From assembly GCA_020718905.1 (NCBI GenBank), contig DYRD01000019.1, forward strand, positions 1 to 37,513: a stretch of 37,513 bases of DNA. Reading direction: 5' to 3'. This stretch comes from Syntrophus aciditrophicus (GTDB taxonomy: Bacteria > Desulfobacterota > Syntrophia > Syntrophales > UBA8958). The position numbers were made by a program, and so were the translations under genes. Below, in pieces: positions 1,364-37,513 of the stretch (position 1 is its first letter; each line of letters starts with the position of its first letter). A model generated the notes under the pieces. That model saw only the letters and a program-made list of their open reading frames with translations, made no database searches and was not told the DNA's origin.

Positions 1364-1722
1364 AGCCGCTCCTTTCCGAGGGGGACTCCCTCATGACCAT
1401 GATTATCTGCGATCAAAACTGCCGACGAAATACCTGTCGTTATATCCACAAACACCCGGCCTGAACCCTGTGACGAAGCGGTGTCGTTATCACGGATCTT
1501 TTCGATCTTCTTCAGGATCATCTCCTTAAGCTCGACATCCGACGCGTCAAGTTGATAATAAGCCCTAAGGAGGAATGTTGCCGCACCGGACGGTCCGAAG
1601 AACTCCACGAGCGCCTGCCTCAACAATGCCGCATCAACCCTGAAACGGTCCTGTGGACGCTTCACCTCTCTCATCCCCAAACCTAGCGTTTTAAGTACAT
1701 CAGCCTCGAGCACCTTACGCAC
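1360..1722 (-). CDS. Unknown 120-residue protein between giant gene and PilZ gene
   Basis: I do not recognise this protein. It starts with GTG at 1720-1722, which overlaps the stop of the giant gene by eight bases (1715-1722), so it is probably made by ribosomes that finish the giant frame; no independent Shine-Dalgarno is visible. A GTG at 1711-1713 and an ATG near residue 17 are alternative starts. The chain is mostly helical and charged, with a central Gly-Pro-Ser-Gly turn and a Lys-rich helix (KEMILKKIEKIR), then a strand-rich end containing DNHGHE. No membrane span, signal peptide or known catalytic motif is visible. Its position suggests an accessory or adaptor to the giant protein; that is inference only. 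Confidence 0.65.
   Translation of the reverse strand: MRKVLEADVLKTLGLGMREVKRPQDRFRVDAALLRQALVEFFGPSGAATFLLRAYYQLDASDVELKEMILKKIEKIRDNDTASSQGSGRVFVDITTGISSAVLIADNHGHEGVPLGKERL
1369..1374 (-). promoter_or_regulatory. Ribosome binding site of the PilZ gene
   Basis: On the minus strand this reads AAGGAG, five bases before the ATG at 1361-1363. It supports that ATG as the true start, within the last codons of the upstream gene. Confidence 0.75.
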
Positions 1723-4700
1723 CCCGGAGGTGAACGCAACGATCTTCGCGCGCAGAACACCCTCCTGATCGTTTTGTTCTGCCTATCAACTGGATATCCT
1801 CACTCGAATGTAAGATAAGCCTGACCAATTTATTCGGCAAATATTTTGCGAAGATCTGCGCGGTATTCACCACGAAGACAATGTCGCCCATCCCGGCCAT
1901 TCTCTTGTGCATGATCACATTGATCGCATTGAAATCTTCCGGGCCAAGGACTAAATACGGGAACTTCACCTTGAGCGCCTCAATGGCGCCTTTGAACGTC
2001 CAGCCGAGACCCTGTTCAAATAACATCAACCAGTCAGAGGTTTTCGTCACAGCCGCATTGGGGGCATTGATGGTAAGTACACCGTCGCTGATGGCAACAC
2101 CATTGAAGGCAGCCCCTTTGTCAACAACGACCCTGGTCAGATCCCGCGCGCCCTCATGGAACAAAAGGACATTGACCGCACGTAACAGATCCACAAAAGG
2201 AAGGAGCTGCCGGGCCGCCCGTTCGATCCTTTTTTCATAAGGAACATGGATATCAAACGTGACACGGCTTTTATCAGAAAGGCTTCTTTTCTTGCCCTGA
2301 GTGAGAACATTTTCCAACTTGGCTTTATAGTCAGGGTCAGGGGTGATCCCAAAAGAATCGAATGCCTTAAAAAGTGTATCGAGCTGATCAATATTCGAGC
2401 GGAAATAATTGAGACTGGCGGCAACTGCCTGCTGATGCGGATCAACAACGACGTGGTATTCCTGAAGCTCTGAGAGCTCATGATACACAACATCCTCCAT
2501 CAGCTGAACAAAACAGGAACGCTCGGGGCTTTGCGTTTCAAAAAGAGGCGCCCGTACCGCGAGTGCTTTCATGACCGCGGCCTTGCCGGGGATCGTTGAA
2601 ACATCCGAGATCTTGCCTGATCTTGTCTCATCGACAAAAATAAATAATTTCGCGCTGTCTTTCTCAAGGATACTATCAAAATACTTTCGCAAATTAGCCA
2701 GCGCCTCGGGCGTTATCTCTTTTAAGGAAGGCTCTATGACGGCCGGATAAGTAGAACATCTTGTGGCCGGTAAAACCAACGCAGGAAGACACTCGGCGGG
2801 GAACCTCGCGTCCCCTGCAGGCTTCACCTTCACGGTCGTCGCTGCCGAAAAACAACTGCCATTTAAATTCGTTTGGGATATCCAAAGACCTGCTGAATCC
2901 CCGACAATAGCTTCCACATTATGACGGACCCGCTCAACTTCTTCCGGCATTCCCTGCACCAGAAGCCAGTCCGTTAAATTCGATGTATAAACGACCTTGC
3001 TCACTGCTTGCTCAAGTTCGAGTTGCTGCAATAATCCGGGATCGGCCCAGTTACCGTTCATAACACGGATCCCGCCCTCGTTTACGACCAGCCTTAATTC
3101 CTGGAACATGTTCTCATTGGACAGCCAGTCGCGACCTTGGCTCGCGTCCAACGACATCGCCGACAATTTCTTCAGATCCGTCTCCAGGCGATACCCCAAA
3201 AGCCGCTGTTCAAGGAACTCCCCGGCGTTCCTGCGATATTCTTCTGGTAAAAGCGTCAGAAAATCCTTAATAAGTTTATTATCATACGCAGGTCCCAGCA
3301 AGCCCAACCCCCAGGAATGACCTTTCCTTTTTTTCAAGATGAATGCCGCAATGTCTTCCAGTAATGCGTCCAGCAAACCCTTCATCTGCCATCGTAGCGG
3401 ATCGATCCCAGCCATATTACAAAGGAATTCAAACCTGGAAGCAGACCTTCCGACTAGAAACAGGATATAAGGAAGGAACACGTCACTTACAAAAGGATTG
3501 ATATCAATGATGTACGCCTGCTTGAATCTGCCGGTGAGAATATGCGTGAAGACCTGACGGGAAGAAGATACGCCGTAATACACAGCGTTCTTCCCGGCAA
3601 CTCGCTCAATGGCGTCAAGCGAAGTATACCAGTCCGGCTCTGTACCGGAAAAATAGGTGGCATCCTGGAGACTGTTGAACACTTCCAGTTCCGGACGTGT
3701 CATGCCGGCAGGATGGGTCCTGAGGAACCACGAGCCGTCTTTGGCCAGGCGCTGTTTGATGTCAACCATCATAAATTCCCCGTAAGCGCCGACCAGCAGC
3801 ACTCCCGCGATCGCCGACGGGCCCGTCATCCCCCCCGCGTCAACCAGTGAAAAGACCCTGGCAAGGAACAGCCAGAGGAATATCCCGACCGCCAACAGCG
3901 CGACAGCCCCCACGGCCAGGACAACGACCACGACAGGATTCGTATACCCGGCTTTACCACTGCGAAGATCCTTTTCTTGCGAGACAACGGATGTCCGGTC
4001 GATCCAGTCATTCGCTTCTCCCTGATGCCACCTCAAGCGGGGCACAACAGCCTCTGCCACGACTTGTCGGTCGAGGATCAATTCCTTGCCTTCAAAAGGA
4101 AGGACGACCGCGGGGCTTATCCCTGGCTGTGACAGGGAACCATCTTTTCTGATCTTCACCGGTGTCCCGCTGTTCCACAGAGCATCAAACCCGAGGGCGT
4201 AATCCCTGCCGCCCGACTGCTCAAGCAGGCGGAGAATACCGGGGAGAATGGCAATATCCTGCCCGTCCCATGTCTGCACAAAGACCGTGCCCGGAAGGTC
4301 AACCGGAAAGTCGCGCCCGTTATCACCGACGACAACAAGATCGCGCGCGGGATCAATGATCCCCAGTTTTGCAACAGCCGTTTTGTACGACTTCACTTCA
4401 GGCAGGTCACCGAAAGAACGCATCCCGAGTTCAACGCGGGTGAACACCCGCTCCTCCGGAAAGAAGCCGGCAAGCCCGAGGTCATCGAGCGCTCTGCGCA
4501 ACCCCACGGGCCAACGGGCTGTCGCGAGCGCCAATACGGCCCCCTCCTTCACAAGCGCCTCACAACAGGCCTGTGCCCCCTGCTTGACAATATCTCCTTC
4601 AAGCCCCTTCGAGAGCGTTCCATCGAGGTCGAACACGATCCCCTTGCGGGAAGAAGGAACAAGCGCGCGCAGGACATCAAGCAGCCGGGGCTGTGAATTA

Positions 4701-7700
4701 CTGACCGCGATGATGACATCAAAATGCTCGTCCTGCCCGAGCTGGGCGAGTTTTTCAGCAACAAGGTCCCGAGCGAATCGTTCGGCGCGAGGCCAGTCGA
4801 TCTCCTCCCGGCCGATCGCCGGTTCCTGGCGGGCGACCGCGAGCACTTCATCAGAGAACAGGAAATCCACCGACTCCTCAAGGGATATTTTCCAGACAAA
4901 CCCCTTGTCCGTGACCTTGAGCTCTGTTTTAGACAAGGGGTGCTTCTGCAAATACGCCCTGATCGCCGAAACAACGAACCCGTTATCATTCTCACCGAAA
5001 TAAACAAGATTGCGGATATGCGCATACGCCCTGTTCTTCACGAGGACCAAAAGATGCGGCATCTTGTTCCAGGAGATCCCGCCGATGACCTGCTGATAAA
5101 GCTTGTGCAGGCCCATCGTGTATTTGAATTCAAAGATCGCGTTCTCGCTCACCGCGTCGAATTCCTTGACCCGGTCGCCCATGGGAACTTTCACGTTCAT
5201 ACCCGTCATGCCGCCGAACGACAATCCCTGCAGGATCGTCCCCTGCCTGATGACCGTCTCGTACACGCCCGAGATCTCGCCGGAGATCCCCAAGACCTTC
5301 GGCATATTCCCCAGAGAGACGGCCGCATCCGCAAGCGCCTTGCGGATATACTCCCTGATGAGCGCCTCGGCCGCGCCCGTATAAGACCACAAGGCCCGGA
5401 CCTTGCGCGCAAAGTGATCGGCCCTGAAACCGACGCGGGAATATTCAGGGCGCCCGGCGGTGCCCTGCTCGATGACGGCAAGCGCGCGTTCACGCTTGTC
5501 CTCATCCTGCTGTGGCTCGGCCGGGAGAACAGATGCCGGAACCACCGCGGGCTTGCGCGCGGCGACCACTCCGGGACACTCCCGGCGATAATGTTCGACC
5601 ACCGCCATGGCGCGGGCATGATCGCCGTAAAGAAGGGCGGCCAGCTCATGCAGGCATATTTCATCGACGGGGAAAAGACTGTTAGTGGCAACAATAATGA
5701 CAGGGGAGGCAGGATCTTCACTATTAAGACCGTTGAATATAGCCGTATGGTCGGGCCCGGCGCGGACCTTGAGAACTTTCCTCATCCGTTCAAGCACCGC
5801 GGCATCGGCAGGATAACTCCTCCTGTACCAGGAAAGCATTTTACGGAACCACGGCTGTGACTTGACGCCTGAAAAACCGCTGAAACCCGCCGCGCTGATC
5901 TTTTGATACAACGCCCGACATTCCTCTGGTGTGTGGCCGTCCCGCGGCCAGGCAGGATCGGAATGCCCCAAAAGCCGGGACTGCGAAAGTCCTGTTTTAC
6001 TTAATCGCTTCAGGAAATCGAACAACAGTTCAACAAACTCCCCGGGATCCTTGAGAGCCAGCTCCCTGCTGTCGGTACCGAATTCATTGCTCAGCACATC
6101 AACACGCGAATGGAATGAATGATACGAGCGGCCCCTGCAAGAATTCTCTCCGTCATCCGTCGGCAACATGGTCACGCGCAATTGCCGCGGTACCACCTTG
6201 CCCCAGTCGACCCTGAAATCTTCCTTCTGTCGGACCTGCGGATCCCTGAGCTCGGCGCTATGATCAATGACGATCTTGTCCCGTATCACATTAAGATGTT
6301 CACGCACTTCACGATCGCGAATATCCTCGATCTTAAAAAGAAGCTGCCGCCACTCGTCATGCGTGATCCCGTATTCCAACAGAGCTTGCCGCAATCCGGC
6401 TTCTATTTTTTCTCTCCCTTCAAGCGACTTTTGAGCGCCCTCCCGCAACAGTCCGCGTGGTTCTTCTTTATGCCGCCTGGGAAGATGTTCAAGGGCCTGG
6501 ATCATTTTCTTGCGATAGTTTCTCTCAAGGAACATACAAAAAGGATGATCCGGCTGAGATCCCGATCCCTCTGAAGCGATCATAATGGCTTTAGCCAGAT
6601 TTAAAGACTCCGGCAAGCCGACCCCTTCCGTCTCATTACTCACAACAACCCTCATCCAATTCATAAAATTTGTACTGCTAGAAAGCTCATCAATGATCAG
6701 ACGATCTATCAGGTCCCCAAGTATCAATAAAATTTCTTTTGCCTGGGATTCATCATCTGCTAAAAGACACAACCCTTCAAAAACAGGCTGCATCTGTGTT
6801 CTAAGCTCCATCCGTTTTTCAGAAACAACTGCAGTCAATAAAAGCCCATACGCGCTTTCTCCCCGAAAATCGGGAGTATGATCGTAGCGCTGAAGAAAGA
6901 CTTTTAGACAACCGGGAGCGTGCTCTTGCAGACGGATCAAAAGATCCGTCAAACAATAACGGCGCCGAGGATCCTGCTCTAAAAGTTTACACGCCTCCAT
7001 CTTACGCAATGCCCCGCGCACTTTTGACAGGGAGTATAAGGCCCCATCAGGCTTTTTCCATACCCTCTGAACATCCTGCGCGACAAAAGATCTGCTCGGA
7101 TGATCTTGGGACCTGCTAAAAAGAGATCCGGAAATAATATGGTAAAGCTCCTCGAGCCCGCCGGGCTTGATGTTTCTTTTTATTCCTGCCTCTTCATTGG
7201 CCTTTTTCCGAACTGTTGTCCGCTCTCGGGACGAAGATATTTCCAGGGAGTGGATAGCTTCTTTATCCTGCTTTTCGATCACGATCCCCATATTGCTCGG
7301 TGGAAGGGCGATCGCGTTCCCCTTCAGATCGGTCAGGGTGGCGTTGCCGTTAGCGATGATATTGCGGTCATACCCTTCCTGCCGGTACACCTGCAAATCC
7401 GGCGGAAGCTCCACAAAACGGATCGCAAGCCCCAGCTCGCTGGCCGCCTTTTCGATCAGCGCCAAATAATCACGGCGCGTGGCGACGCCATACTGCTCAC
7501 GCACTTCATACGTGAAACTCTTCGGCCCCCAGGTGAGCGTATACAGCGCTTCCATCGCGTCCTTGCGCTTGATCCTGAAAGAACGCGTTCCGTTCGAATA
7601 CGGCGAGGGGATCTCCTCCCAGGACAGGGGCCGCCCAACGAATTGCTCCACATAGGCATCGAACATTTTCTGGAACTGCACATCATGTAAATGCATGATC

Positions 7701-10700
7701 TGCCATTCTTCGCCGTCATCGGGCATCACCCCGTCACGGATAATGATCCTTCCACCCGAGTTAAGCGCTTCCATCATCACACCGAGCAATGTCTTTACCG
7801 CATTGATATTGAATTTCTTTCCTTCATACGGAACATAGCTGAAGATCTCGTGCAGGAACGAAAAGGCCAGGATGGTATCCGGCCGGGGAAGGCCTTCCTC
7901 CTTGATGATCCGCGCCAACTGGAACGCGTCGCCCTGGACCAACTGCGTATGCCGCCAGCCTTCCTGTTCCTTGCGTTTCTGCAGATCCGAGATCATCTCC
8001 TGAGAAAAATCAAGGCCAATGATCGCATCGAACCCTTTCTTCCCAGCGATGCCCTCCAGAACGGCGATCATGACCCCGCTGCCGGCGCCCAGGTCCCAGA
8101 CCGTCTTGCCAACAACAAAATCCATGAAACGCGCCTTGTCGTCCCGCGCGCCTTCCATGCTTTCCTGATAATTCGCTTCCTGTGTGATGCGGTCGAACTC
8201 ATCTTTACGGATCCCGTAAAGGTCCAGTATTTTGTTAAGCACCGCCTGGAACTCCACGTCATTAACAACCTCATTGTCCTTAAGCATTCCGGCGAGCCGC
8301 CGGGCTTTCCCGGTCATGTTCAACTGGAACGCGAAAGCCTTTTCGCCATCAATGTCGTCCAGCTGGAATTCAGTCAGGAACGTCGCCGCTCCTTCCTGGT
8401 CCTTGGCCCATAACGCCCGTAACTTCCCGTCATTGAACAAAATATCCTGCAGTGAGACCTGCCGCAAATACGTTGCGAGCATGCGCAAGAGATAGAAATC
8501 ATATTCTCTTCTGTCAACCGATACCGCCTTCATCAACTGCATGAAATTGATATGGAACGGCCTTGTGAGGTCAACGCCCTGCAGTTGCGCCACGCGGACC
8601 GCCAGCGCCAGGACCTTCACCTGGGCTTCCGGGGTCAACCCGCAGGTTGCGTCCTCAACATACCAGCCCTGGAAGAACTCAAACAATGTAGCCAAAGCCT
8701 GGATCTGTTCCGCCGGAAGCCCGTCTAAATAAACATTCAGAAGCTCTTTCGGTTCATTGTCCGCGCGATCGTATTTCCTGAAACGCCCCAGCCGGTCCTT
8801 TAAAAACGCCCTTTGGCCTGAAAGGCCTTCTCCCCCCCGGCGCTCACCGTCAAGGTCCTTCCAATCAAACGAGCGTGAGCTCAACACACGATAAAAATCG
8901 TCGTAAAACCCTTCGAATTCGCAAAGCAAGCTGTCTGTCATCAGGCCTTCGCGCAGGGCGCATACATCGATCAGGTCAAAAAGAAAAATGGCGTCCACAA
9001 TGATCCTGATAGCTTCCTCATCTGTTGAACCATCCGCGAAAGCACTCTTTAATTCCGGAAGATGCTCTCTGATCCAATCCGTCCATTCCTGAAAGACATG
9101 ATACGTAACCTCACCGCGGATCCATTGCCCGTCGTAACCGCGGCAGGCGATCATCCTGTAGAAAAATTCATGGACAATATCCGCGTTCGGCAAAGAACCC
9201 AATGCCGGAATATTCTCGAATAAGCCGATCCGCTTTGAACCCGGGAAGCGCATCTTCCGCACGACCATCGCGCTCGACTTGTTGGGGATGAGCGGATCGA
9301 TCCCCTCAATACGTCCCCACGCCCGGCGGTCTTCGGGCAAGCCGCCCTTGATGATGTCGTGATAGAGGAACGCCAGGAAAAAATGCGGGAATACCGTCGA
9401 CGCCTGCAAGTGCTGGAATGTGTGGGAGAGCTGATCGAACTTCTCCTGCGAAAGCCCGTCGCCCCTCTGGAACCACTGAATATCGCGATGCGCCAGGCCC
9501 AACATCTTGCGTTTCAGCCCGCGCTTGAAAATATGGTTCACCAGCGTCATGTCATACGGCGGTGTTAACGGATCAGCATAGGCCGACGAAAATTGCTCGA
9601 CATCGTAATTCATCAACGGCTTGTAGGGATACAGATACCCGAACAGCAGCGGAAAGGCTGCCTGGATACGCTGACGGCCCGCGAGGTCTTTCTCATCGAA
9701 CAACGGGGTGAAGAATTTCTCAAGACCGTCGAGATCTTTTCTTCCTAACAATGCTCCCGTTTCATCAGCTGGTATGAAATTATGCGCCCAATGCAACTGA
9801 AGAGCTTCACTATCGGTCATCGCGGGATCAGAAAGACGCCTGAAAAGATCCGTGTAAAAATACTGCCATTCATGGTCATTCGCGAAATGAACTTTCTGAT
9901 ATTCATGTGAAACTAACCACTTGCTTAAAGCGAACCCTTCATGCCGGATCTGCCGATTCTCCCGGGCAAGGATCTCTTTCTTGCCTTCTTCATCCGCCGC
10001 GTCATACGCCGTGCGGTTCTCCTGCATCACGCCTTGCTGATGATTCAAGCCAGAGTTCTGCCTGCTGTTCTGTAAAGTGTGTACACGCGCGAAGGCTATG
10101 ACCGCTTCCTGCCGGCGCTGTTGAGCATTCTTATCCCCAACATAGCGAGGAATGGCGCGCAGAGAACGGCAAAAAGCTTCCTCCCGGGCCAACGCAGGGT
10201 TTGCTTCGACGAAATACGCCGCGGCAACATGCGCCATAGCATAAACACTCCGGTCATTGAACTGCCGCGCGCGTATCCAGTGAAAGACCATGTCGAGGCG
10301 TTCTTTGGTGGCCTGTTGAGGGGACTTTTTAAGAAGCGGCGGAAGAAAACGCAAAGCTTCAAGGCGCACATGCCGATCTGTCTCCCCGGGCAACTGAAGC
10401 CGATCTAAAAAAGCCTCGATCACATCATCCCGGTCCGCAAAAGACTTGCCTTCTTCCTTCGAGAAAGCGGTCACCCTGCCCAGAGCTAAGACCGCTCCGC
10501 GCCGGACAACCGGGCTATACGGATATGCCGTCGCATTGATCAGCGCCCGCAACGCCTGCTCACGCTCATCACCTTTTTTATCAACGACCGCGGCCTCCCA
10601 TTGATCCATTTCCGCCATCAACCAGGGGCCGGCATTCGGCCCGATCACAAAGACATCCTCACTGCCTTCCTCAACGACCGCCGAGATCTTTCGACCTTTT

Positions 10701-13700
10701 CGAAGGCCCTTGAATTTGACCACATTCGAGATCCCGCGCACCAGATCCCCGATATCTTTCCTGATCTCTTCACGCGTGCGGGGACGGGCGCCCGCAGGAA
10801 CATGCTCATCAAGAAATTGTTCAATATATTTCCAATACATGGCTCCGGCGCAAGGGAAATGCCATGATTCCTCATTACGGACCAGCCCCGTGAGAACCCC
10901 GTCTCGGGTAAGCACGGCAGAACCGCTGCGCCCAGGAACAGGATCCATGCGCACTTGCGAGTATCCCTGGTCCAAAGAATCCGACGCCCACTGGACCGAG
11001 GTCTTTTCCACACAACGTTTGTCAAGACCCTTCCCCTTGACGGTGGCCACAAACATCTGCCGGTTCTGCGCGCCGTACAGCGCGCTGTCCTCGGCCCGCG
11101 GCCATTCGGCGAATGCCATCTGAACAGTCGCCGGGATATCAGAAGAACGGACACGAAGCAGCGAAATGTCATACGGCTCTTCAGGCGTTGTATCGTCGAG
11201 AGATGGCGGGATATAAGCAATAACATCAGCCGGAACAAGGTCGCCTTTGGAGCCGAAGACAATATTCACAGGCGAATCTTTTCCTGAAACATGCCCGGCG
11301 GTCAAGACATACGTATATTCGCGGTCACGCCCCACAAGAACACCGACGCCTCCGGTCCTTCGGGACCTCACCCGAACAAGCATCCGGGCCAGGCGCTGAA
11401 CCGCACGGCGATCTTCAGCCGTCATAGGCAAAGACATGTTCCGGGGAGCGCGCTTCTTACTGCGAGAATGCAAAGGGTCAGCCTGATCTTCCTGTGCGAT
11501 CGTCTTTTTATTCTCAACCCGTGCGAGCTCAGACTTGACCGCCGCCATGCGAACAGCCTTGGTCGGATAATACATCCGGCCCTCTGAAGGAATAAGCCGT
11601 CTAAAACGATCGTCCCCCAAAGCCTGGTCCGCGCCTTTAAGCGCATCATAACCCGCATACCTACATATTTTTGCCGCCGCCATATCGGCTTTGATCTCAA
11701 AAGCTTTTCGCATAGAAGGAATAAAAACAAAACATCTGAATGCGTCCATCACGACAAGAAGCGGTATGGCGGCAAACCATCCAAAAGCAAGTGCGGTCAC
11801 AAAAACCACCAGAAATGTATTGACCGGAAAATACGCTGAAGACGCTATTGCGCGCCACATCAATGAACTTAGCATCACCCGATGCCCGATCTCATGCGCA
11901 AAAATAAAAGCCAAGGCATTACCATCTTTCCCGGCATTAGAGCCACATAAAATAACTTTAAGGTTCTTTCCTTCGATCTTCGCATAACTAGGGGTCTCTT
12001 TGACAGATCGAAACAATTCAAATTTATCTTTATCTGTGATCTTGTCAGGGTAACATTTCCGGGCAAACAAACAAATTCGATCAAAGACATCCTTGATCTC
12101 GGGTTCAGGAGCAAGGAATACCTCCTTGGATTTTCGAACAAAAACCTTACGAAGAATATAAATCGCGAAAGGAAATACCCACAATGAACCCATCACAAGA
12201 AAAAGCATCCACATTTTGACGATCAGATCTCCTGGTAACGGAATCAGCGCCTGATCAACATAAAATTGAAGCAGTTCCCGATGCACCCTGGGGGCCAAAG
12301 CCAGGATCACAGAAACCACAAGAACCATCGTCACAAGAACGCGGGTCAGAACAAATCCCGCGTTTTTTTCTTTCTTTTCAATCCCGTCGATCGCCTTGCG
12401 GAGCGCCTGGACATGCCTGGCGCTTGCACCGCGACTGGAGACCGCTTTTCTGGCGGCGGAAACAAGCGCGGGCTTAAGCCCCAGAAGGCTTGCCGAGCGG
12501 GCACTGATCTCGGCGAGCAAAACTTCCCGGTCCTTCTTGTCCATCAGCCGCGGATCAAAGAACGCGCACTCTTGCAGATCGAACGAATCGCAACCACAAC
12601 CGTGCTCCCTGAACTGCTCGGCCAGACCATTAGGAATAAAAACCAGCTTGTCCGCGCTCCACATCTCCCGCCCCTTCTCCGCCAAACGGTTGAGGCCGTT
12701 ACTGTGCATGCGGCGTTCAAATTCCCTGACAGCCTCATCCGGTATCCGCGACAACACCGTGCCCTCTTCCGGGGAAGGCTGAGCGTCTGCCAGCATCCCT
12801 TTCCAGGCCTTGAGCATCGCGTGATCGACCCGGGCGGGAACGCCGGCGGAATGTTCGGTCAACTGAGTGCAAAAATGCTTCAATGCCTTATTCTCCTCGG
12901 CCTTAAGAAATGCCTTGGCGCGTGCCTGCCTGCGCGAAACTTTATTGCCGGAACGCTCGGTGTCTAGCGGACCTCTCTTTGCCCGCAGATACTCCTGGGA
13001 ATCAAACCCCGTCACATCCTTGACGACCGCGCCCATATCTTTAAAACGGACCCCGATCGCCCAGGGATAAACCTTGGCCGTATCCGTCGCTGAGAACCAC
13101 TGACGCAACCGCGCGCCCAGTTTTTCATTGCCCCCCATGTCAAAACCAAACTCGACACGGCCGATCTCACCGCCGAGCACTTCCTCAAAGATCGACCCAG
13201 CCACACGGTAACTGTCAAGTTTACTGCGGACCTTGGTAGAAAGAACGAATTCCAACGTGAATTTGGTGCGGCAAGACTTGATCTCGAAAATAACGATCTT
13301 GCCCGTCTTCGGATCCCGACAAACAATATCCAGCTCCGTGATATAGACCCCGCCGTGGCTGAAAATGACCCGGCCCACATCAATGATCTCCCAGCCTTCC
13401 TCAGCAAAGGCCTCCGTATAGACCAGCTCCAGAAGAAGCCCGCAATAACGGCTGTAAAAAGTGCCTTCGGCTAAATCCAGAACGGATGCGTTCCCGTCGG
13501 CAAAAAATTGCATCAGGCCGGTCACTTCATCAATAAGCTGGTCTTCATCCGCGGGAAAAGCGAACCGGTCGCTCAGCGCGTCGATGATAAGCCCGTGCTC
13601 GGCCTTGTCGGCACGCAGGTCAACCTCGCGTTCACGGATGGCCTGCATGATCAGATCGCCGCCCATCTCAAACGCCTGCTGCACTAAGGGCGCAATGGGG

Positions 13701-16700
13701 TCGCGGGAATCCAACAGAGCCTGGAACGCAGCCGGGTCCGCGCGGGCCGCCCTGACGATCTCGTCCCACCCCGTATCCACGACCACGTGAACATCATCAT
13801 ATTGCCCTACCGTCTTGGTGTATACCCCCGCGCCCTGCCGGCGGATCAGATGGTCCAGCCAGCCGGGATTGAGCATTTTCTTGGCGATCTGCGCGTATTC
13901 AACTACAGGCCCGTCGAGAGGGCCATACGCGTCAAGAAAATCGGTAACAAACCCCAGCGCCTTCTGCCTGGCATCGAGGCGTTCAAGACGATCAATAAAT
14001 CCCTCATCCGCCAGAGCCTGCCGGGCCGACAACAAAAGGTCTTTTTCCATCTTGCGTTGAATGAACGGATCCGCGTCATACGCATCGATCGCCCTGGAAA
14101 CATAGGCCAGCGCCATCTCGTTGGTGCCAGCGCCCAGACGCCAGACAGCCTCGACGGCCATGGAGAGCAAAGGCCCGGGATGCCGGTACGCCTGGTGGAC
14201 CTGGATGATCGAGACTCTGGATGTTACCGGGTCCTTGACCACCGCGTCGATCCAGGTATGCCCGGAAATATACTGATTGACCTTAAGAAGCTCATACCCA
14301 TTCTCGACCAGGACCTTAAGCATGCCCAGCTTGCCGCGCACGGTCCGCAGGGTGGGCGCAAGCACATCCTGGGTCGACGGGCAAACATTGATGCGCTCGT
14401 AAAGTTTCAAAATAAGCTGACGGCAGGTTTCGGCATAGGGCGCGGCCCGTCCAAAGAGCGGGACCATTTTGCTCACACTCCACCAGGCAAAAACCCCGTG
14501 GGCCAACGCCTCGGCCTTGGCCACATCCTCATGGCCGGCATAAAGATTGCTTTCTTCAAATTCCAGGACTTTCTGAAGCCAAGGGGTGCCAAGCAGGCCG
14601 GCGGGAAGAGCGATCTGCCCGTCGATGACAGCGCTTACGACAAGACGCTCCGACGAATCGAATCGCAAGAACGGCGGCGCGCGCGACGCGCTTTTGCCGA
14701 AATCACAACTGCCATATTTAAACCCGTTCGGCAGGAAGAAACAGGCCCGCTCCCCGAGGCGCGCCAGAAACGTGCGCTCATCACCGGACACAAGGTTTTG
14801 CAAGTCCTGCGGGAGCGCCGTGAACGCCATCATGCGGCCATCGATGCCCGTCGCCTGGCGGATCTCACGCGCCGCCTCAGGCGACACCTGCCCGTCCTGA
14901 TATATCCCCAGGCCGCAGCACAGCGGCGCGTCTTTCGACCGAGACCCCGCCCTGACCTTCCTATTAAGAAGCCCGCGCAATTCATTCATTTCCGGGACAA
15001 CGATGCTGGCGGAGAGCAGGCCTTCATACAGGGAATTTAAATGGCCGGTTTCCCGGGTATAATGCGCGATCAATGCAAGCTCGTCGCGAAGGCTTAACAC
15101 AACCAGGGCCAGGACCTCTGCGGTGAACTTGCCGATCATGGCTGTCATGTGGCCGAACCGCGCGCGATCGGGAACATCCGACAACATCGACACATCTCCC
15201 AACAGCGCCAGGAATCTCTGCGAAAAAAGATGGACGCCGAACATGAACCGCCAATCGTTTTCCTTCCCCGTATTGTCCATGCCCTTTTTCACATCATCAG
15301 CATCAAGCGCCTGAAGGTCTTTAAGATACGCCTCCATCTTTCCGAGGACAGCCCGGCTTTCCTCGATCTTTTCGGCATTGAATAATGCTTCCGCTTCATC
15401 ATGCAGGGTGACGATCCTGCGGATATCCCTACCCGCGCCGAGGATAAAATGGCGAATGTCGGCACAATCCTTGAGCCTTTTGCGATCTAAAGGAGACAAT
15501 GCCGCGGCGATAACAACAGGCGCCGCAGACGGGATCTGCCCGTCACGGTACAGGGAAACCTTATTGTCGGCTGTGACCACGCCGAATTCCATTCGCCGCT
15601 GGCCGTCTTTTTCATCGCTCTTGCACGACCAGGTGCCGGTGTTATACACCTTATAGGCTCCGAACTTTTCCACGCCCCAGATGTGCGTATGGCCGTAAAA
15701 GATCTTCAGATCCGACGACAACAGGCCCCGGACTTCCTGTTGATAGGCCAAAGCACGTAAAAGCGCGGGGAAATAAAAACTGTTGATCCATTTAAGCGGA
15801 TTGACCAGCTTGACCAGGCGGTAGATCGCGGCCTCGACGCGCTTGAGCGTGGTCGGATATTCGGTGGTCTGTTTTTCCTGCCTGAAGAACTGATAGAGCA
15901 GATGGACCGCCTTCGTGATCCTGCGGCTCGCTTTATTATCAAAATTCGTCGGGTCAGCCTGATGCCCGTGCATACAGAATATCTGGCGGTAGGGATCGAA
16001 TGATTCTCTTTTAATGCTGACCTTGCCGTTCAGGCTTTTTTTGATCACCTTGTCCAGGCGTTCCTGTGTATCAATGAACAGCTTTCTCAATCTTTGAGCG
16101 GCCTGATCAACGTGCCCATCGTCGATCAATGTGCGGGCTTCCTCGACAAGATCCTGACTGATGTAATAAACATCCCTGCCTTCTTCCTTGACCATCCCGC
16201 GGCCAAAAGGACGGCTGATCCGGACATCCGCGTTCCCGAAGAGCCCCCGCATTCCTTCTTGCGCCAGCAAAAACGACAAGGCCTCACTATCCTGCCACCG
16301 GCCGAGGATCCTGGCCCTCGCCCTGGCCGCCGCCTTTTCACGCCCCTGAATGATGAACGACTTGATAATATCCTCGTCGTGATTGCCATAATTGTAAACG
16401 ATCCTGCGGGCGCCAGACAAAAGATCGAGCAGAGCTTTCTGGCTTCCTTCAATATCCCCGTACTTGTATTCCCATAATTCGAAAATATCACCGTTAAGCT
16501 CGATCAGGGCGCGATCCTTGACAGCCTCACGCAGGATGCTCTCGAGATATTCCATTGTTTTGGGCGTTAATGAATCAAAGTTGCGTATCCCCAGATGAAT
16601 GTCCGAGAAAACATAGATCTTCAGCGCTTTTTCAACCAGCACACGGATCTTGTCCGCCGACAGTTCATTGCCGTCCTCTAACTCAACCGTCACCCGGCCG

Positions 16701-22700: not shown

Positions 22701-25700
22701 GCCTGTTCATGCGTCGTCAGGAACAAATGCACATTAAATACCGGCAGATATTCCCAGGAACGCCCGCCATGATGAAAGACCGTCGTATCCGGAACAAGGC
22801 CGTGATGTTCCAAAGAACGAAGCGCCCTTTCTCCCGTATCCTCATCATTCTCGGAGATCAACACCAGCCGCAAATGCTCCCCGAAGATCTCCTTCAATCT
22901 CTTTAAACGGCCGAAAGCCGCGCCCTTGGGATAATAGTCATTTTTGTGTTCTTCCTGATACTTCGCGTATTCCATCGGCCTGGTTGCGTAAACTTCTGCG
23001 GAATCCTTGATATCCAAAACAACCCGCGACGAGAAACCGATAATGATCCGCATCCTTGTTCCGGCATCCAAACAGCAAATGCCAACCTCATCGGTCACCA
23101 AAGGATATTCGATATGCGTACGCTCATGACTAAGGATGCGTTCTTGGGACCCTTGAGAAAAGGCATCAAAAACAGGATATGTTTTGATCTTGCCGTCAAT
23201 AACTTCAGCGATCACGGTATCATGATCGAATGGCGGCGCCCGGCCGCGAAACGCTGAACTGATGACTTCTTCATAAACAGGGTCATACGCCCTGGAAAGT
23301 TTTCTATTGCCTGTTCGCTCGCCTTCTTCATGGGCCGCGAAGATCGTTCCTATGCTCAACGCCTTGCGATCGGAGGGATTGCTGTCCGTGAGCTGACCGG
23401 CCGTCCGCGCGAACAGGTCGCCGCGGCGCTGGCCGTTATCCGCGAAGATCCCCATCAGCCGGGCGATCTCGTACCTTGGCATTCCGGCCTTTGCCCAATA
23501 GCGGGCCGCGCGGTCCATTTCATCACGGATACCGCCGATCATCATCTGGCCGGGGTCATCCGTATTAAACGTAACCGCCTTGATCAGGAAAGAAAGGTCC
23601 CGTCCGTTGACACGGAATCCCTGACGGACGATCTCAAGGAACGGCCCCTTGGACCCGGGGTTCAGTTCAATGAATGTCCCCTGGTCCGCCAGCTTGCGGG
23701 CAGTCCAATACGCCAAATCAAAAAGTTCCCGCGCCGTCAACAGCGGCTCGCGCAAGACAACCAGCGGGTTCTCCTGCTCTGACACCTCATAAACAGCCCT
23801 GGCCCGAACACCCGCCATATCGATGGCAACATTTCCCTCATTCGCGACCTTTCTTAACCAGGCAAGGGTTTTTTCCAGTTCATCACGGTTGACAGATTCA
23901 CAGGCCTGAAAGATCTCGCCGGAAAGCGGCCGCATGACCGCCTTGATATGGCCGACCGCCGCAACGCCAAGATCATCAACAGCTTCATGGACATAGCGGA
24001 TCGCGGTCACAATATCATGCCCTTTGCCCTTGACCGCATCCCAATCCTCGGCCACATGATATGTTGAAGCAAGCGGAGGATGTGTCCGTCCGTATTCCCT
24101 GAGACGGTCCGCGATCGGGCGAAATCTCGACGGAGGACATCCGACTTCCAGGGACGCCGCATCCCAGCCGCGGATGAAAGACTGCAACTGCGGATCCGCC
24201 TCAAGCGCCTCGATGATCCAGCCCAACTGATCGGCAAGCACCTGATCGGTCTCGCGTTTGCGGAAAACAACGCCAATATTGACCTTGAGCCCCGGGAATT
24301 TCTGTTCCCCGCGCTGCGCCGCGCGGGCGGCCCCCTGGAGCATGGCCCGCACGCTGTCCCGGTCATACTTGGGCTGAATGCGGATCTCCAGATGGCTGTT
24401 CTGGGCGAACTTTTCGACGATGCGGTCCACATACCACTCTGTCATCAGTCCCAGGTCCGCCGCCGACATGACCCCGCCCTTGACGCTTTGTTTCAGCACC
24501 GTGGCATAGCGGTCATAGGCACAGAGGAAATCAATGAACGGGATCTTCTGGCCGTCATAAGGCGCGTCGCTGACAAGCGAAAAGAAGATATGTTTCAACC
24601 CCAAAAGATATTCGGCGTGCTCGAACTGCCCCTTCATCTGCCGTGCCAGGAACAAAAGCCTGTTTAGATCCGTCCCTTCAAGATCATGGCCGTTCCAGTC
24701 AAGATACGGTGTTGTCAACTCCAGCGCCCGGCGCTCGGGATACAGCATGCCGAGAAAATCTTCCGAAAGTCCCGGCGGCAACACCGCATCCCCGGTCGCG
24801 AGAGCCCACAAGTCATCAATAGACAATTGGGCCTCAATATGCCCGTGATTGTCCGCCAGCCGCTCTCCATGTTTCAACCACCAAAGATCCCCGTTCTCCG
24901 GCCGCGACAGATCCTGCTCAGCCGCCGCAAGCCAGCCGAGCGCGGCGCGGTCGTTCTGCCCCGAGGCAAGAGACTCATTGACAGCCTTCCTGTACTCCAA
25001 CGCGAAAGATCCCAGCGCTTCGGAAGAACCGGGCGCCTTGTCCGCGAGCGCCCGAAAAGAAGCAATACCAGGCAATGAAGCCTGAAGAATATCCTCAAGG
25101 ACTTCGCGCGTCGCCGTAAGCCCGACAGCGTCGCCATACGGCTTTCCTTCTTTCACCAGAAGTCCTGTCTTTTCAAGAATAAATATACGATACACCTTTT
25201 CCCATAAGGCCAGGCCCTGCGGCACATGTCTTTGCCCGAAGATGACCGCAGGATCGTTCGCGGGAACAGAGGCGGGAGGACCTCTCTGTTGTTCACGCAG
25301 GTCAGTGACCTTCTTTTGATATGCCTGGAGATCCGGGAAGAACCGGCGGTCTTCCGGCGTGAACTTGCCATTGGTCTCCATCCATTCGACCAGCAGGACC
25401 GCCGCGACCCCGGTCTTTTCTGACAGGACCTTTTCCGTATCCTCCCAAACCTTCCGGGTCCAATCTTTTGTCCAAAGCTCCCAGATCTTCGGCAGATGCT
25501 GTCCAAGGAATAATGCGATCTGCTCAATGTCATGATAACGCAGGCGGCTCACCAGTTCGCGCAACTTGAGGCCGGGATAAGAACCGTCCCGTCCCTCGTC
25601 ATAAACGCCCGACAGCAACTGATCGACCAGCATCTTCATCCGCATCAGTTCCCGCTGATCGGAAGACACAGCAAACCTTGCGGCGGCCTGCGGCCCCAGC

Positions 25701-28700
25701 ATTTCACCCGCGATATCCCGGCGCAACAATTCATGCTCATGGTTGAAAACGATCCCCGCGCGACGAGGCGAGAAATAAAAGGCCTTGATATCCGCGCCTT
25801 TCCGGCGCAAGAGAGGCGCCAGATAAGAATGAAAAGCGCCCCGCAACACCACCGCGCGGCTGCCTGCAGGCAACGCCAAAAGCTGGCCCATCAGCCGCGT
25901 GTCCCTGGACATCAGGCTCTTCCGCTCGAACGCCTGGCCCTTCTCTGCCGCTTCACACGCCGGCCCGAGCCGCCCTTCCATAAAGTGATCCAGGGCCTGA
26001 TAAAGTGCCGCGTCACTCTGGCGGTCCTGTTCATCGCTCTCAGCCGTATCCTCGTCGGCAACATTGAGGTTCAGCCGCAAGCCCATGGCTGTGGCGACGC
26101 GTAAACATTCAACGATCATCCACAAGCTTTGAGGATTTTCCGGAACGATCTGTTCACTGAACAGATCTTCCATCACCCCGTGATCAGCCATCCTGGAAGG
26201 AGAAAGATCGCCGCTCAGGACCCGACCCATCACATCTTTTTCCACCGGATGAAGCTGTTCAATAAAGACCACGCCCTGATCCCCCGCCCAACGAAGGGCA
26301 TCCTGGAACATCTGCCGCGTGAACTCCGGACGGTCATGGATCTCCCAGACAAAACGGATCTCGGCGTTGCCACCGGATAAAGACCGAAGCTGTTCTTCCA
26401 TGCGGCCGCGGATAAAATCCTTGATCTTCTCGATGCTCCGCTCGGGCCCCCACCACTTTGCACTCTTGGCCAACACCTGATGTGTCCCGAAACCGGAACG
26501 GTCCTTGTGGCCACCGCCCCACGCCACCCCGCCGGGGCCATTGAGGGCCGGAGCAGACACGTCCAGACCGTCCGCTTCGATGCCGCGCGCCAAAAGGAAC
26601 GTGGTAGTCCCGTCGGCCTGCTGTTGATAATGGACCAACACGCGTTGACCGAACAAATGCCGGGCGTTGAGCTCAGCGAAAGCCATTTTATGTACGGACA
26701 AGCCCGCCGCATACGCGGACTTGACCTCAAAAAAGAAGACCGGTTCGGAACTTTCCAGGAACGCGTTGATCGAAAGGTCTGCCTGCCGGATAACCTCTTC
26801 GGCGAACAGCATGAACTTGCCGTCCCCTGCCTGGGCCAGCAAGACGGAAAGCTCTTCCATCAGCATCCGGATATCCTTCGCCCGGGCGAGAAGGCCGATC
26901 ACACTGGCAAGCGCCTGACGGCCGGCCGGGTCCTGAAGAACATAAGGCCCGAGGAGATTAAGCCAATCCGCGGCCCTGGCAATGTCGGCGAAGTCACCTG
27001 GCTTGAACGCCTCGGGGAACAGCATCTGATATTTGTCCCCGAAAAGAGCAACGGCCCGGATCAAATTAAACGCTTCATCGCCGGTCCCGAAAAAGTCCGC
27101 GGCCAAAGCCCCCGCCGGATACACATCCGCGTCAGGGCCCGGGAACAACAAATGATTGTTGATGATCACCGCTCCCTGGCGTACCCACTCGTTGACGCGT
27201 CCCGCGACATCCGCGGGCCACGCATGATGGTCGAAGATCAGGATATGGTCAAAACCCTCTTCCCCCCGGCGCGTATACCGGCCAAGCGCGGGGAACCTCA
27301 CATCAAGGACAACAAGAGCCGTCTCTCCAGCGGAACGAAGCGCCATCAATGCCTGATGGTCAGCCTCAAGAAAGCCTTTGTCCTCGGTCTCGCTGACCGG
27401 GAAAACAAGGATATTGAGCATCCCGAGGCCCGTGACGGCCGGATCATTAACGGCTTTAGCGGGGGCGCTGATGATCTGCCACGGCCGGCCGATCTTGTCC
27501 GCTTCCAGCATGAACCGGCGAACAACGGCGGAAGAGGCACTGATCGAATCCGCGTCCATGGCATAGTGGCCGGCATGATGGCCGGCAACAACCACAACGC
27601 CGGCATTCGCCGCAATGCGCTCGATCTTCTTTTCCACAAGCGCCTTGACCGCATAGATCGGGCTGTCCTTATGTGCCCACAACGCCCGGACCTGGGCGGC
27701 TGTGCTCATGGCGCCGCGCGGCTTCATCAGCGGCGTTGTCAAAAGCCGAACCTCCTCTGAGTTCATCCGGGTCACAGGCAAAAGCCCTGTCCCGCCCGTC
27801 ACAACAGCCAGGCGCCGCTTTTGCTCTTGTGCAACATCCCCGGGCATCACCCCGACCGCACGCGCCACATCGATGCGAAGGGCCTGGGCTTTTTCATACT
27901 GCGCCCGCGCCCGGCCGAGACTGTCCGCGTTCAAGCCCGCGACATGATCGCCCATTTCCCTGGAAAGCTGATCCTCTGATTTTAACAACCCGAGGCTGTT
28001 CACAAGCCGCTGGGCCTGAAACGGCGTGAGGCTTTTCAAAAACTCGAAAGAAGGAGCGCTCAAAACGCCTTCAAGCCCGTCGCGCAAAAGCCCCCAGGCA
28101 CCCTGCCACACGGTATGTTCCGACGGATAATCGGCTTCCTTCACCAGAAGGCGAGACGTCCTCAACCGCGCTGTCATGGCATGGGCAAGGTCTTTGTCCC
28201 CGGCCTCGGCGACCGCGGGCATCAAGCAGAGGCCGGCCCTTTGCTGTGCTTCCAGGGAAGCCCATTGTTCCGGCGTATGAAGATGTCCGCGAAGCCATCC
28301 GATCCGACTCTCAAAAGGCTCTGCCTCATTGATACCGACGACGCCGGTGATCGCGAACAGCAATTCCGCCATATGACGCGCCATGATCATGGAAATATAT
28401 TGTTCTCCCTCCCCGGAAGACTTCACGAAAAGAAGTTGTCCCGACGACAACAGCGCCCCGGACTGCCCGAAATCCGCCAGCAGGACAATGGCCAGCTTCA
28501 CGCTCCCAAAGACCTTCTTGGAATCACGGACAAAAAGGAACATTTGCTCAAGTAACGCGGCATAAAGCGCCCGGACTTCCCTGGCGGCCCCATCTTCCGA
28601 CGACAACCCATACTCCAGGCGCCACATGATCCTGATCATCTGGCCCTGATAATACGGCCTGACCATCCTGATAAACTCATCCCACTTCACCCGGACGATC

Positions 28701-31700
28701 CTGGAAGACAGGTCCTTGACCTGGTCCGCCAGTTCATGCTCATATTCCTCTGCCCTCTTGAACAGATGGATATCCGAAAGAAGCTGCGTAAGGTCAGCAT
28801 CCGTAATATGGGACAGATATTCCCGCTGGCGGCCTGCCAAGCCTTCCACCGGCGATCCGGAAAGATCCCTGGAGCTCTCCGCTTCAAAAAAACGATACTG
28901 CTGTAATTGAGACGGGAGCAGGAAGCGATGGAGCGGCAGCAGCTTGGCGAAACGGCCCGGATGCTGGGTATGGATCGGCATCACATATTTGGCCTGAACC
29001 CGCCGCATAAAATCATGAATGAGCTCATACTCCTCGATGTGCGGAGAAACATACAGCTCTTCCCAGACCATATCGTATTTCTCGATCCACATATCGATCT
29101 TCTCGTGCAGGGCCTCCATATCGGGGCTGAAGAGAGCGCCCAGCGAATAAACGAACGGCGCGTCCGGCGGCGGCAGGATGGTATCAAACTCATTAAGCTG
29201 GGCGATCGAAAGCATGACAATACAACGGCCCTGATTGGCGCTTTGCGACAGCCATTCGGAGGTGACCATGCGCTCCGGCGGAAGCCTGCCGTAAAACTCG
29301 TCCTCGATCGACATTTTCCGGCGGGTCTTGGCGCCGGACTTATCCGTGGCAAGCCCGAACATCTCGTAGAAATATTTCGCGATCCCGTGGCCCCACTTGC
29401 GTTCCGGCACATGGAACCTGATCGTTGCGTCGCGCAGCACATCAGGGACATCATACCCCTCCTCGCGCAACGCCATAAGGAACCTTGCCATGGCGACGGG
29501 GATGACCCAGAACCGGCCGCTCTCCTTCGCCAGCTGATGCCAGCTGATCTGCCGGTTAATATAATGCCAGGAACAGCTGGCAAAGACCGGCTTGTCTTTC
29601 GCCCGGTCAATGATCTGCCGGGCGAGTTCCATATACTCAGCCTCGCTGCCGATCCGTGTCCGGCGTTCGGGAGAGACCGTACACCCTTCGGTCATCAGGA
29701 CCAGGATATCCGGGTCTTCAACGATACGCCTGATGAACGCTTCGGTCGCCGCGCGGTCATGGCTCTGGATCGTCAGGTCACCGGTATAAACCACCTTGCC
29801 GGCGGGCGTCTGGACAATGAACGCTTCCGCCGGAATGGAATGGCCCACGCGGACAGGCGTGATCATGAACGGCGAACCATTGATCGTGAATTCTTCCCCG
29901 GCGCGATAGGTCATGATATTGCGCGGCACGCGCGGGTATGGCCGCTGGGCCATGTTGGTCCGGTCCTTGATATGGGTATACTCGGACCGCAGCCCGCTCG
30001 GTGAAAGGAACTCGAACGCCTGCATGGCGGCCTTTGTTTCAACCGACATGATGACCAGCACATCAGGATCCAGGGCGTACAAGCTCTCGATATGGTCCAG
30101 ATGGGCATGCGTGATAAGGACCGCGCGGACCCCGTTCGACTCAAACGCCATCCATCCGGTCTTTCGCTGGAACATATCCCCGCGGATCATATCCGGAAGC
30201 CAGGGAAGGATCCCGGACTCCATACTGCCTTCAACCGATTCCACGATCTTGAACCCGCCCCATCCGGAGAAAAGCTCATCCCAGTTGCGGGTGGCCCCTC
30301 CCATATCCATAAAGATGCGCGACCCATTCATCTCAAGTTCAACAATATTCCCGGCGATCCTGTCGGTGCGGCTGTAAATGGTTATCTTCCCGGCAACCTT
30401 GGGAATGATCCCGGCGGACTGCGGACCAAGGAGCTTTCCGCCGAATGTTCCGGCCATAAAAGCAACGGGCTGAAGACGGAACAGCTCCACCAGCCTCTCT
30501 CGCACGGAGGGGTCCTGCTGGCGAGGGATCAGCGCCGTCAATTCCTTGCTGAACATATCCCTTAACGCCGCGACAGAACTTTTCAGGTTCCTGACCGTCA
30601 CCGGCCTCCCCCAGGAGATCACCCGCTGGATCTTCTGCTGAAGGCTCGCAAGCCCCTGTTCCAGCACAGAAGCATCTTCCAGTTCATACCGGCCGGCCAA
30701 CGCCCTGGCCTCGGCCTCGCTCGCGGGCAACGCTGGATAAAGCTTCAAAAGGCTTTTAAACTGCTCCTCCAACGGCTTGTCCTGCTGCAGGGATCCGACC
30801 CTTCCCTCGGGAGCGCTGACCCGCTCATGCTCCAAAGAATAAAATACCTGCCGATCCTTCCAGAAAATATTCCCTGTCAAAAAGGCCGGGATACCCAAAG
30901 GATACTGCCGCTGTAAATACGCCACCAACGACTGCCGGGCATTCAGGGCGCTCTCCGACGACCCATCATCCGAAACAAAGACGACCGGCAAACCTCCCAG
31001 GATCAGGCCTTCGATCCAGGGCCACATCCTCTCATCAAGCGCGCCGAGAACGGCTCCGCCCAACCCAAGGGCGCCAACAGGCCCGGAAACCAGCGCCGCC
31101 GCCGTTTCCCGCGGAAGTGCGGGCGCCTTGACTGCCGCGTGACGCGCCAACGGGGCGAGGATCTCTTCTGCCGTAGCGCCCCGCTCCTTCGCGTCGCGGA
31201 CAAATAACCCCACCTCGGACAAAACACCCGATGTCGTCTTGTCCGTTAACCAACGCCGCTGTGTTTCATCCATTGTCTCAACGATCGCGTGATCGATCGC
31301 CGGACGGATCACGGCGCCCGACAACCGGCCTTCCAGCGCGTCGGCGGAAACGCCCGCCGACACGACGGCATTCGCCCGGGGATCCGCCGACGATGTGAGG
31401 ATGCCGCGCACACGCCCGATAAAATCTGTATCTCCAAAAGCCAGCAAGATATCATCATAACGCTCCTTGTAAGGAGACATCATTTCCGGAAGGGTCTTTT
31501 TCTTTTCAATGCGAATGACCGAAGAAGTCGCGTTCGATCCGGCAAAAACCGGAGGAAGAACGCCTTCAAGATGGGAATAAAAACGATACAATGTCTTATG
31601 AATACTTCCGGCGGCATCAACAGCGACGGACGCCGGGATATCGGCGGGAAAGATCATGAGGAACCCCGGCGGCGCTTGCGGCCGGTTAGCCTTAAGAAGC

Positions 31701-34700
31701 GCAATGACCATCCGAGTGTCAATATCTTTAAGGAACGCGCGCACCATCACGCGAGCCTCTGAACGGGTCTTCACCTTGCCGTCACGGACAAAACTTCCGG
31801 TCAGGGTCATGACAAGGTCCCTCCACGCCCAACTGCCGACAACACGGCGAAAGATCGCCCGCGCCAGGCCATCGCGCGCGCGAACAAGCTCGGCCGGTTC
31901 GGCAAGGCCCAACCGCTCCGACAACCCAAGCCGAAACATCTGTCCGCGATAATAACGGGCCAGTTCATAAACCTTATCGCTGATATCATCCGGATGGGTC
32001 GAGTCTGCCCGTTCAGGGTATGTGAATATCCTGGCCCGGCGTTTCACCCCGGCCATCAGCTCGCGCACTTCCTGCTCCATCCGGACAGAAGTCCTTGTCT
32101 GAGAAAGGCCTTCCAGAAGCCCCCAGGCCTCGGCGCGGCTAAGGCTCTTGAGGAACGCCAGCTCATCATCCTTCAGGACCCCCGCCGGGACAGGCAGTTC
32201 CAGCCCGGCTTCCCGCGTCAGAAGCGCGCATGGTTTCGCGTATAACGGCGCGATCGAATGGGCCTGAGGCGCGCTGCGCGCCAGGACCGCACGGCTAAAA
32301 GAATTGCGGTCCAGGCAATGCACCGCCAGTACATTAGCGGGCGCCGCGTCCCTGATCATGTCAAAGGACTGGGCTTCCAGCAAATGGCCGGAAGCGTGTA
32401 TCCCGTATTTCCTGACGCGTTCTCCGCGAAGACCGAATTCTTTCATCCACGCCTCGACCTTGCTCTCGGAAATGGTCATTTCCAGGTTCCACGGCTCTCC
32501 GTGAGAATGGATCCAGGAAACCCCTTCATTGACCGGCACCATCCCCAGGATCTCTCCGACCTCATGCGTATTGAGGACCAAGAGGATCTTTCCGCGCTGT
32601 TTGCGGGCCTCATCCTTGCGTATGATCATTGCCGCAAGCCGCGGGTCGGCAAAGATAGCCTGCTCAAAACAACGGTAATCACCCTCGGGGTCATACTGGC
32701 CCGTCCGCTTGCGGACCTGATAGATCCTGAGGCCTTCCGCCCCGTGGATATCAAAAATATCATGATCTTCCGGCCGGAAAGTCTGAGCCACTTCAAGCAG
32801 ACGCAGAAGATCAACACTCTCCAAAGACAGGATCGCTCCCCGAATGATCTCAAAAGACTCCCCCTGCCCGGCGATAGCAGCCCCCTCTTTCTTCCCTCGG
32901 CGCTGGCGGTTCATCTCATTCGACACCTTGTCCATCAACTCCTGCCACTGGCCGCCATCTTTTGCCAACACCGTGATCCAGGCAAAGAACGCTTTCTTCA
33001 ATTCAGGCATTTCTCCTGCGATCAACCGGACCCATTCCTTCTTCCCGGGCCGTTTCATGACAGAGAGAACATCCCCCTCAAGGCCGTTGTCCGGCATCTT
33101 GATAAAGATCTTCAATAACGGAACCCCCAGCGATGCCGGGACTTTTTCCAGCGCCTTCAACAGGAACGCGCCAGCAAAAACGTCCGCCCCCTGAGCGTAA
33201 GGAAGATCCCTGACCATGATCCCGCTCTTGTCAAGGGAGGCCGTCCACTCTCCGAAACCGTTCTTCCTTAAATGGGTCCTGACCGCGGCTTCACGCGTCA
33301 TTTCTAAAAGATAGGCTTCCTTGGCATTGATGACCAAAGCACGCCCGCGGCTGTTCGCCGCCTGCCAAATATTCCGCATACGGGCCAGGTTCAGGAAATT
33401 AAAATTCACGACCGCAAGCTGGTCCGCGGCAGCCTCGAGCACCTCTTGCGCGCGCGGGACAATGCTCATTTCCGTCGCTGTTTCGTGCGGCTTGGCAAAA
33501 TTCGTCCCCTCCGCGATCATGGCCACCACCCCGAGCTTGCGGGCCTCACTCGTAAAACCTTCCGTCCATTGCCCGTAGGAACGCATCTTCCCGTCGGGAT
33601 CCTGGTCCCAGTTGGCACGAAGATCCCCGGTATAAGCGATCCAGCCCGCATCAGTACGGATCAAAAACGCGGCCGATCCCGCCGCCGAATGGTCGACCCT
33701 CTTGGGAAGGACCGTCATCGCCCCGACCTGGAACGGGACATCATAATCAAAAACGCGGATCTCGCGGCGGACAGAAACGCCGGTCTCGCGGTCCTCAAAA
33801 GAAAGAAGTTCCTTGCTGATGTCCGCGCCCGCGGCATCAAGGGTCGTCATCACCGCCCAGGACTCGGGACTGACATAAACAGGGATATCACTGCGCACAT
33901 AAGCCAGGTTGCCGATATGGTCCTGGTGAAAATGACTGATCAAAATGGCGTCGACCGGCGCCGGGCCCTGGATCTTCATCGCTTCTTCCGTCAGGTCATT
34001 CCGGAAAAACCCCTTGATCCTGGGAAGGAAGCCGTTAAGGAGCATATCGCGAATGCCCTGGTGCACGGTCCTGGGCCTCATATACCTGGCGGAATACATC
34101 TTCGACGCGCGCTCTCCCGCCGCACCGGGATCAATGAATATCCTCGTCGGAGCCCCTGGAACAGGGCCGGATTCAACAAGAGTGCCTCCCATGCCGACCT
34201 CATCACCGCCATAATAAAGGACCCTGGTCGTCGACTCGCGCGGCATGACCGTCTCCGCCTCCGCCCCCAGCATTTCTCCCTGCCGGACAGCCTCCCTGAA
34301 AAGTTCAGGCTGAAGGACATAACGCCAGCGCAGCGCCGACACAGCCGCATCCTTCGTTTCCCCGCCGACAGACAAGTCCCCGGCCAGGCGCTCTGTTTCA
34401 ACAATGAATATTTGCCGCATCCGCTGGACGCTGATGCGCATCAACGCCGGGGTCACCTCCAGCGCGTATTGCCTGAGCCTGGACGCCTGCGCACGCAGCT
34501 CCTCGAGGGACATCCCGTCGGGAACATCCTTCTTTTTCATCCCGAGGGATGCGAGATAATCAAGGCGATCATCGGCATGCCTCTGGAGTGAATGCCGCTT
34601 GGAGTGCTCCAGCAAGGCCTCGGTCTTGCGGTTGATCCGCCAGATATCCGCTAGGTTGAACCGCGCGAACGCCGCGACGAGATCATTAAGGAGCCGTTCC

Positions 34701-37513: not shown

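Follow-up and report, generated by a model that had tools for sequence, protein, structure and literature searches.

The giant open frame

The window analyzed here (37,513 nt) is the entire contig C280 of a 3.0-Mb MAG of 319 contigs. It carries, on its minus strand, a giant open frame and a downstream PilZ-domain gene, and on the opposite strand a gene for a CvpA-like membrane protein (Table 1); no RNA families or tRNA genes were found in the window. Since the window is the whole contig, the 5' part of the giant gene is not readable from it, and no contig overlapping the cut 5' end was found in the bin.

The frame stays free of stops for 11,932 codons, against 459 codons for the second-longest stop-free frame in the window. 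Such an absence of stops would arise by chance with a probability of ~10^-203 given the base composition, or ~10^-139 given the composition at each codon position. The coding score of the giant frame ranks first among the six frames in 392 of 396 scoring intervals, and its codon-position GC is steady along its length; thus, the frame is coding throughout. Shine-Dalgarno-like motifs precede 1.3% of in-frame ATG codons against 1.7% of other codons and are thus not enriched at potential starts, so there is no sign that several independent genes have been fused. These results bear out the first-pass annotation, which had called this a real coding frame, cut by the window edge and therefore larger than what is seen: the frame is still open where the contig ends. 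The giant gene is real and unusual; the sequenced stretch covers its C-terminal part, and it is presumably translated as a single chain.

An assembly chimera, or several genes collapsed into a single frame, could account for the one frame change seen near the 3' end. Nevertheless, such an artifact is highly improbable: codon usage, codon-position GC and coding score are uniform over 36 kb, and the fusion of separate genes without any intervening stop is very unlikely.

The 3' end of the frame, listed at 1715, is doubtful, because the coding signal switches frame near 1764-1790 and continues to 1360. The coding score of the giant frame collapses at ~1764 and rises in the +1 frame of the minus strand, which is open from 1782 to 1363 (stop-to-stop) with its stop at 1360, and the final ~20 codons before the stop at 1715 have no coding signal and are not protein-like. 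Codon usage in the tail is giant-like (+0.051 nats/codon). Probably, there is a frameshift near 1764-1790, either natural or a sequence error; alternatively, the tail may be a separate 120-aa gene beginning at GTG 1722 and overlapping the giant's own stop. This frame change was missed in the earlier reading.

Table 1. Features of the window, ordered along the minus strand from the cut 5' end of the giant frame
Feature	Position	Strand	Basis or remark
Giant open frame	1715..37513	-	11,932 codons (35.8 kb); 5' end cut by contig edge
PHP-phosphoesterase-like motif (VDHVNF)	35834..36916	-	by eye only; no Pfam match
Helix-hairpin-helix motif	35174..35461	-	Pfam HHH_3 E 9.5e-4, below cut-off
RNase-J-like metallo-beta-lactamase domain 1 (HFHQDH, GDLR, HASGH)	32234..34216	-	PF12706 E 3.5e-9
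RNase-J-like metallo-beta-lactamase domain 2 (HAHLDH, GDLT)	28934..30406	-	PF12706 E 2.1e-9; TIGR00649 E 9.6e-14
DHH phosphoesterase-like domain, four motifs (DADSIS, LD, DHH, PAGA)	26864..27646	-	PF01368 E 0.005, below cut-off
TraB/TIKI-like motifs (RDxxM, GAFHS), lead only	25544..26836	-	PF01963 E 0.14
Adenosine-deaminase-like domain	23234..24886	-	HxH, HxxE, H, DD all present; NCBIfam ADA E 0.0025
5'-nucleotidase domain	22208..23053	-	PF06189 E 5.8e-60
ATP-grasp ligase domain (YheC/D-like)	20114..21316	-	PF14398 E 1.4e-7
Hydrophobic hairpin, probable membrane segments	17294..17425	-	hydropathy
Calcineurin-type metallophosphoesterase (DIH, GD, GNHD, GH, GHTH)	15614..16636	-	PF00149 E 1.5e-5; motifs
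PD-(D/E)xK-nuclease-like motif (ELDIVCRDPKTGKIVIFEIKS), lead only	13064..13456	-	motif; no Pfam match
M48 peptidase (HEIGH, EIKAD), membrane segments either side	11594..12361	-	PF01435 E 1.8e-4; hydropathy
Trypsin-like serine peptidase; H, D, S all in place	10844..11356	-	PF13365 E 1.6e-10; motifs
HD-type phosphohydrolase-like motif, lead only	8894..9496	-	motif only
Class I SAM-dependent methyltransferase	7334..8146	-	PF13847 E 2.5e-9; PADLOC mad2 E 2.6e-13
Second PD-(D/E)xK-like motif, lead only	4874..5296	-	motif only
HAD phosphatase-like domain (DLDGT, GDNGRD)	4244..4636	-	PF08282 E 1.4e-3, just below cut-off; motifs
Membrane segments	3749..3946	-	hydropathy
DUF7790 match	2879..3196	-	PF25046 E 3.3e-6
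Probable +1-frame continuation of giant coding region	1360..1782	-	coding-score frame switch, codon usage
Downstream PilZ-domain gene	998..1363	-	PF07238 E 3.9e-13
CvpA-like membrane protein gene	282..983	+	PF02674 E 0.025, below cut-off (weak match)

Domains of the chain

Domains were called by Pfam gathering scores, weaker ones by profile support together with motifs, and leads by motif only. Eight enzyme domains pass the gathering scores: two RNase-J-like metallo-beta-lactamases, a 5'-nucleotidase, an ATP-grasp, a metallophosphoesterase, an M48 peptidase, a trypsin-like peptidase and a methyltransferase. DUF7790, a family with no function attached, is an additional pass. About three further domains (DHH, RdrB-like adenosine deaminase and HAD) combine weak profile support with conserved motifs, while TraB, HD, PHP and the two PD-(D/E)xK assignments come from reading motifs alone or nearly so. 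The "about 20" enzyme-type domains of the first-pass annotation were thus an over-count. The profile-HMM search of the translated frame that it had proposed, run here with Pfam, does yield enzyme domains, but eight of them rather than some 20. Its description of a chain of different enzyme types holds. It had also reported neither adhesin repeats nor assembly-line modules; Pfam finds no such domains, but the chain is not repeat-free, as two internal duplications had gone unnoticed.

The stronger of these duplications pairs residues 1003-1435 with 2288-2731 (E about 1e-18) and corresponds to the RNase-J-like module (window 28574-34507); the other pairs residues 5125-5282 with 7530-7683 (E 0.002; window 21668-22141 and 14465-14926). 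Both metallo-beta-lactamase domains are nearest to RNase J, and the first matches RNase J-type structures with E values from 2e-9 to 2e-4. Like beta-CASP nucleases of the RNase J family, they have a metallo-beta-lactamase core with RNase-J-type motifs, here present twice; unlike them, they score 50.7 against a family cut-off of 400 bits and are embedded in a giant chain.

For the adenosine-deaminase-like domain, the best match among solved structures is RdrB of RADAR (8fnv; phmmer E 1e-3). Foldseek also returns 8fnv (E 4.7e-4 over 156 columns), using a low-confidence model. AlphaFold without alignments was run on two regions and gave poor models (pLDDT 42 and 37), of which only that of the deaminase produced a usable match. 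Thus, RdrB is the nearest solved structure by both sequence and fold, with weak similarity. In contrast to RADAR, the deaminase here is one domain of a giant chain, and neither PADLOC nor Pfam detects an RdrA ATPase in the chain. The neighboring 5'-nucleotidase domain is 32-35% identical to plasmid 5'-nucleotidases and was matched in just one other genome of a phylum sample of ~395 genomes. The stretch at 17834-18946 (-) contains a DFD motif and a glycine-rich stretch; it matches no family, and its structure model is poor.

By hydropathy only, there are three strong hydrophobic clusters, near residues 6700, 8390-8590 and 11,190-11,250. Two familiar kinds of giant protein were considered and rejected. 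An NRPS/PKS assembly line would need carrier, ketosynthase or adenylation modules, none of which is detected by Pfam. For a giant adhesin, there is no adhesin domain by Pfam, and the repeats consist of just the two internal duplications, one of them RNase-J-like. PADLOC matches to PDC-S08, LmuA and mad2 were likewise rejected as defense systems, each reflecting a single shared domain only.

The giant coding region could be real without its product staying whole: the chain might be processed into individual enzymes, possibly through the trypsin-like and M48 peptidase domains that it contains. Both peptidase domains keep their catalytic motifs, and the domains of the chain are unrelated, stand-alone types. 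The usual targets of membrane-bound M48 peptidases, however, are other membrane proteins. We consider such processing unlikely.

Origin of the contig

In RpoC, the bin shares 96% identity with one Deltaproteobacteria MAG and 83-84% with several others; by this marker, the bin is a deltaproteobacterium. The contig looks different. Codon usage is giant-like in every piece of the giant, in the tail and in the PilZ gene, and bin-like in 39 of the 39 other contigs scored (distinct contigs, a sample of the bin's 319); the CvpA-like gene gives a weakly giant-like signal (+0.011). Three control genes, which lie on two further contigs of the bin, have 69-91% matches in four to seven of seven genus relatives. 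In the same seven genomes, the pieces of the giant (all but residues 3001-4004 and 5172-6000) have no homologue, nor does the CvpA-like gene have one in 30 relatives that include all seven. The PilZ gene has no close relative among 395 phylum genomes, of which only one is another genus member; its best match in this sample is 36%, in another family. In other families, some pieces of the giant weakly match single metallo-beta-lactamase genes.

Since its codon usage is foreign and its genes, unlike the three controls, have no close homologues in the genus, mis-binning is the simplest reading, and C280 was probably mis-binned into the deltaproteobacterial genome. The GC of the contig matches the range of the bin, so GC alone would not reveal foreignness. 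The codon usage by itself could also reflect horizontal transfer or a property of giant genes. Indeed, the giant might belong to the deltaproteobacterial genome after horizontal acquisition together with its flanking genes; this would agree with the shared GC range and with the binning, which placed the contig in a bin that is 97.8% complete with 3% estimated contamination. Such a transfer is improbable, however, because 37.5 kb including both flanks lacks genus homologues and differs in codon usage, and none of the contig's genes links it to the bin. Binning can thus credit a giant gene to the wrong phylum, as it probably did here, which is of consequence for surveys of such genes.

No homologue of the chain as such was found in 60 relatives of the bin, ~395 phylum genomes, named genomes, viral contigs, plasmids or phages; all of these searches gave single-domain matches only.

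Comparison with known giants

Omnitrophota contain giant multi-domain ORFs of >20 kb with unclear function, the largest of which encodes 39,678 aa in 'Ca. Velamenicoccus archaeovorus' (PMC10066038). These giants, which have several transmembrane helices but few annotated domains and are poorly conserved, are common in the phylum (in Velamenicoccia, 77 of 116 genomes) and have been connected with predation; peptides of the 39,678-residue ORF increase threefold in attached cells (PMC10066038). Gigantic Omnitrophota proteins with lipocone domains mix enzymes and are proposed to act on prey (PMC12419801), and predicted proteins reaching about 85,800 residues have been reported for PVC lineages (cited in PMC12057145).

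The frame described here shares with the Omnitrophota giants a length of >20 kb (35.8 kb), probable membrane segments, few annotated domains and poor conservation. Unlike them, it is made up, as far as its domains can be recognized, of nucleases and nucleotide enzymes together with peptidases and phosphatases, and no adhesin or carbohydrate domain was found. A divergent SecA-type DEAD domain has reportedly been described for Omnitrophota giants in a 2023 preprint; none was found by Pfam in this fragment, whose 5' part is missing. Like the lipocone giants (PMC12419801), the chain mixes peptidase and methylase domains with membrane segments, but no lipocone, LysM or kinase-receiver domain is found here by Pfam. 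Thus, in size, membrane segments and divergence, the giant resembles known giants of ultra-small, possibly predatory bacteria, and by this analogy its source phylum is probably Omnitrophota-like.

A possible role in macromolecule breakdown

What bacterial giant proteins do is an open question, one reason being that recognizable domains are scarce in most of them. Here, a fair number of domains keep their catalytic motifs, so their activities could be tested domain by domain. The chain would consist mostly of hydrolase-type domains together with several membrane segments. Domains of its upstream half (residues about 1100-5100) could jointly take RNA to nucleosides, namely both RNase-J-like nucleases along with the DHH phosphoesterase, adenosine deaminase and 5'-nucleotidase domains; the downstream half would contribute peptidases, phosphatases and a methyltransferase. 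The location and function of the giant protein are inferred: the domain families suggest, as the most likely role, the breakdown of nucleic acids and protein, possibly those of other cells, by a bacterium that lives attached or as a predator.

The joint explanation, that the giant is the C-terminal part of a hydrolase chain from an Omnitrophota-like source, mis-binned here and serving nucleic-acid and protein breakdown, has in our judgment about an even chance of being correct. Counting against it, the giants described so far have been associated with adhesion and polysaccharide degradation, for which no domain was found in the chain, and the 5' end of the giant, with any secretion signal, lies beyond the contig edge. 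A narrower proposal, in which the upstream half would be an RNA-to-nucleoside catabolic line on one polypeptide that digests the RNA of prey cells and salvages its products, is doubtful.

Directly downstream of the giant lies the PilZ gene, whose codon usage is giant-like; a connection with c-di-GMP signaling is conceivable.
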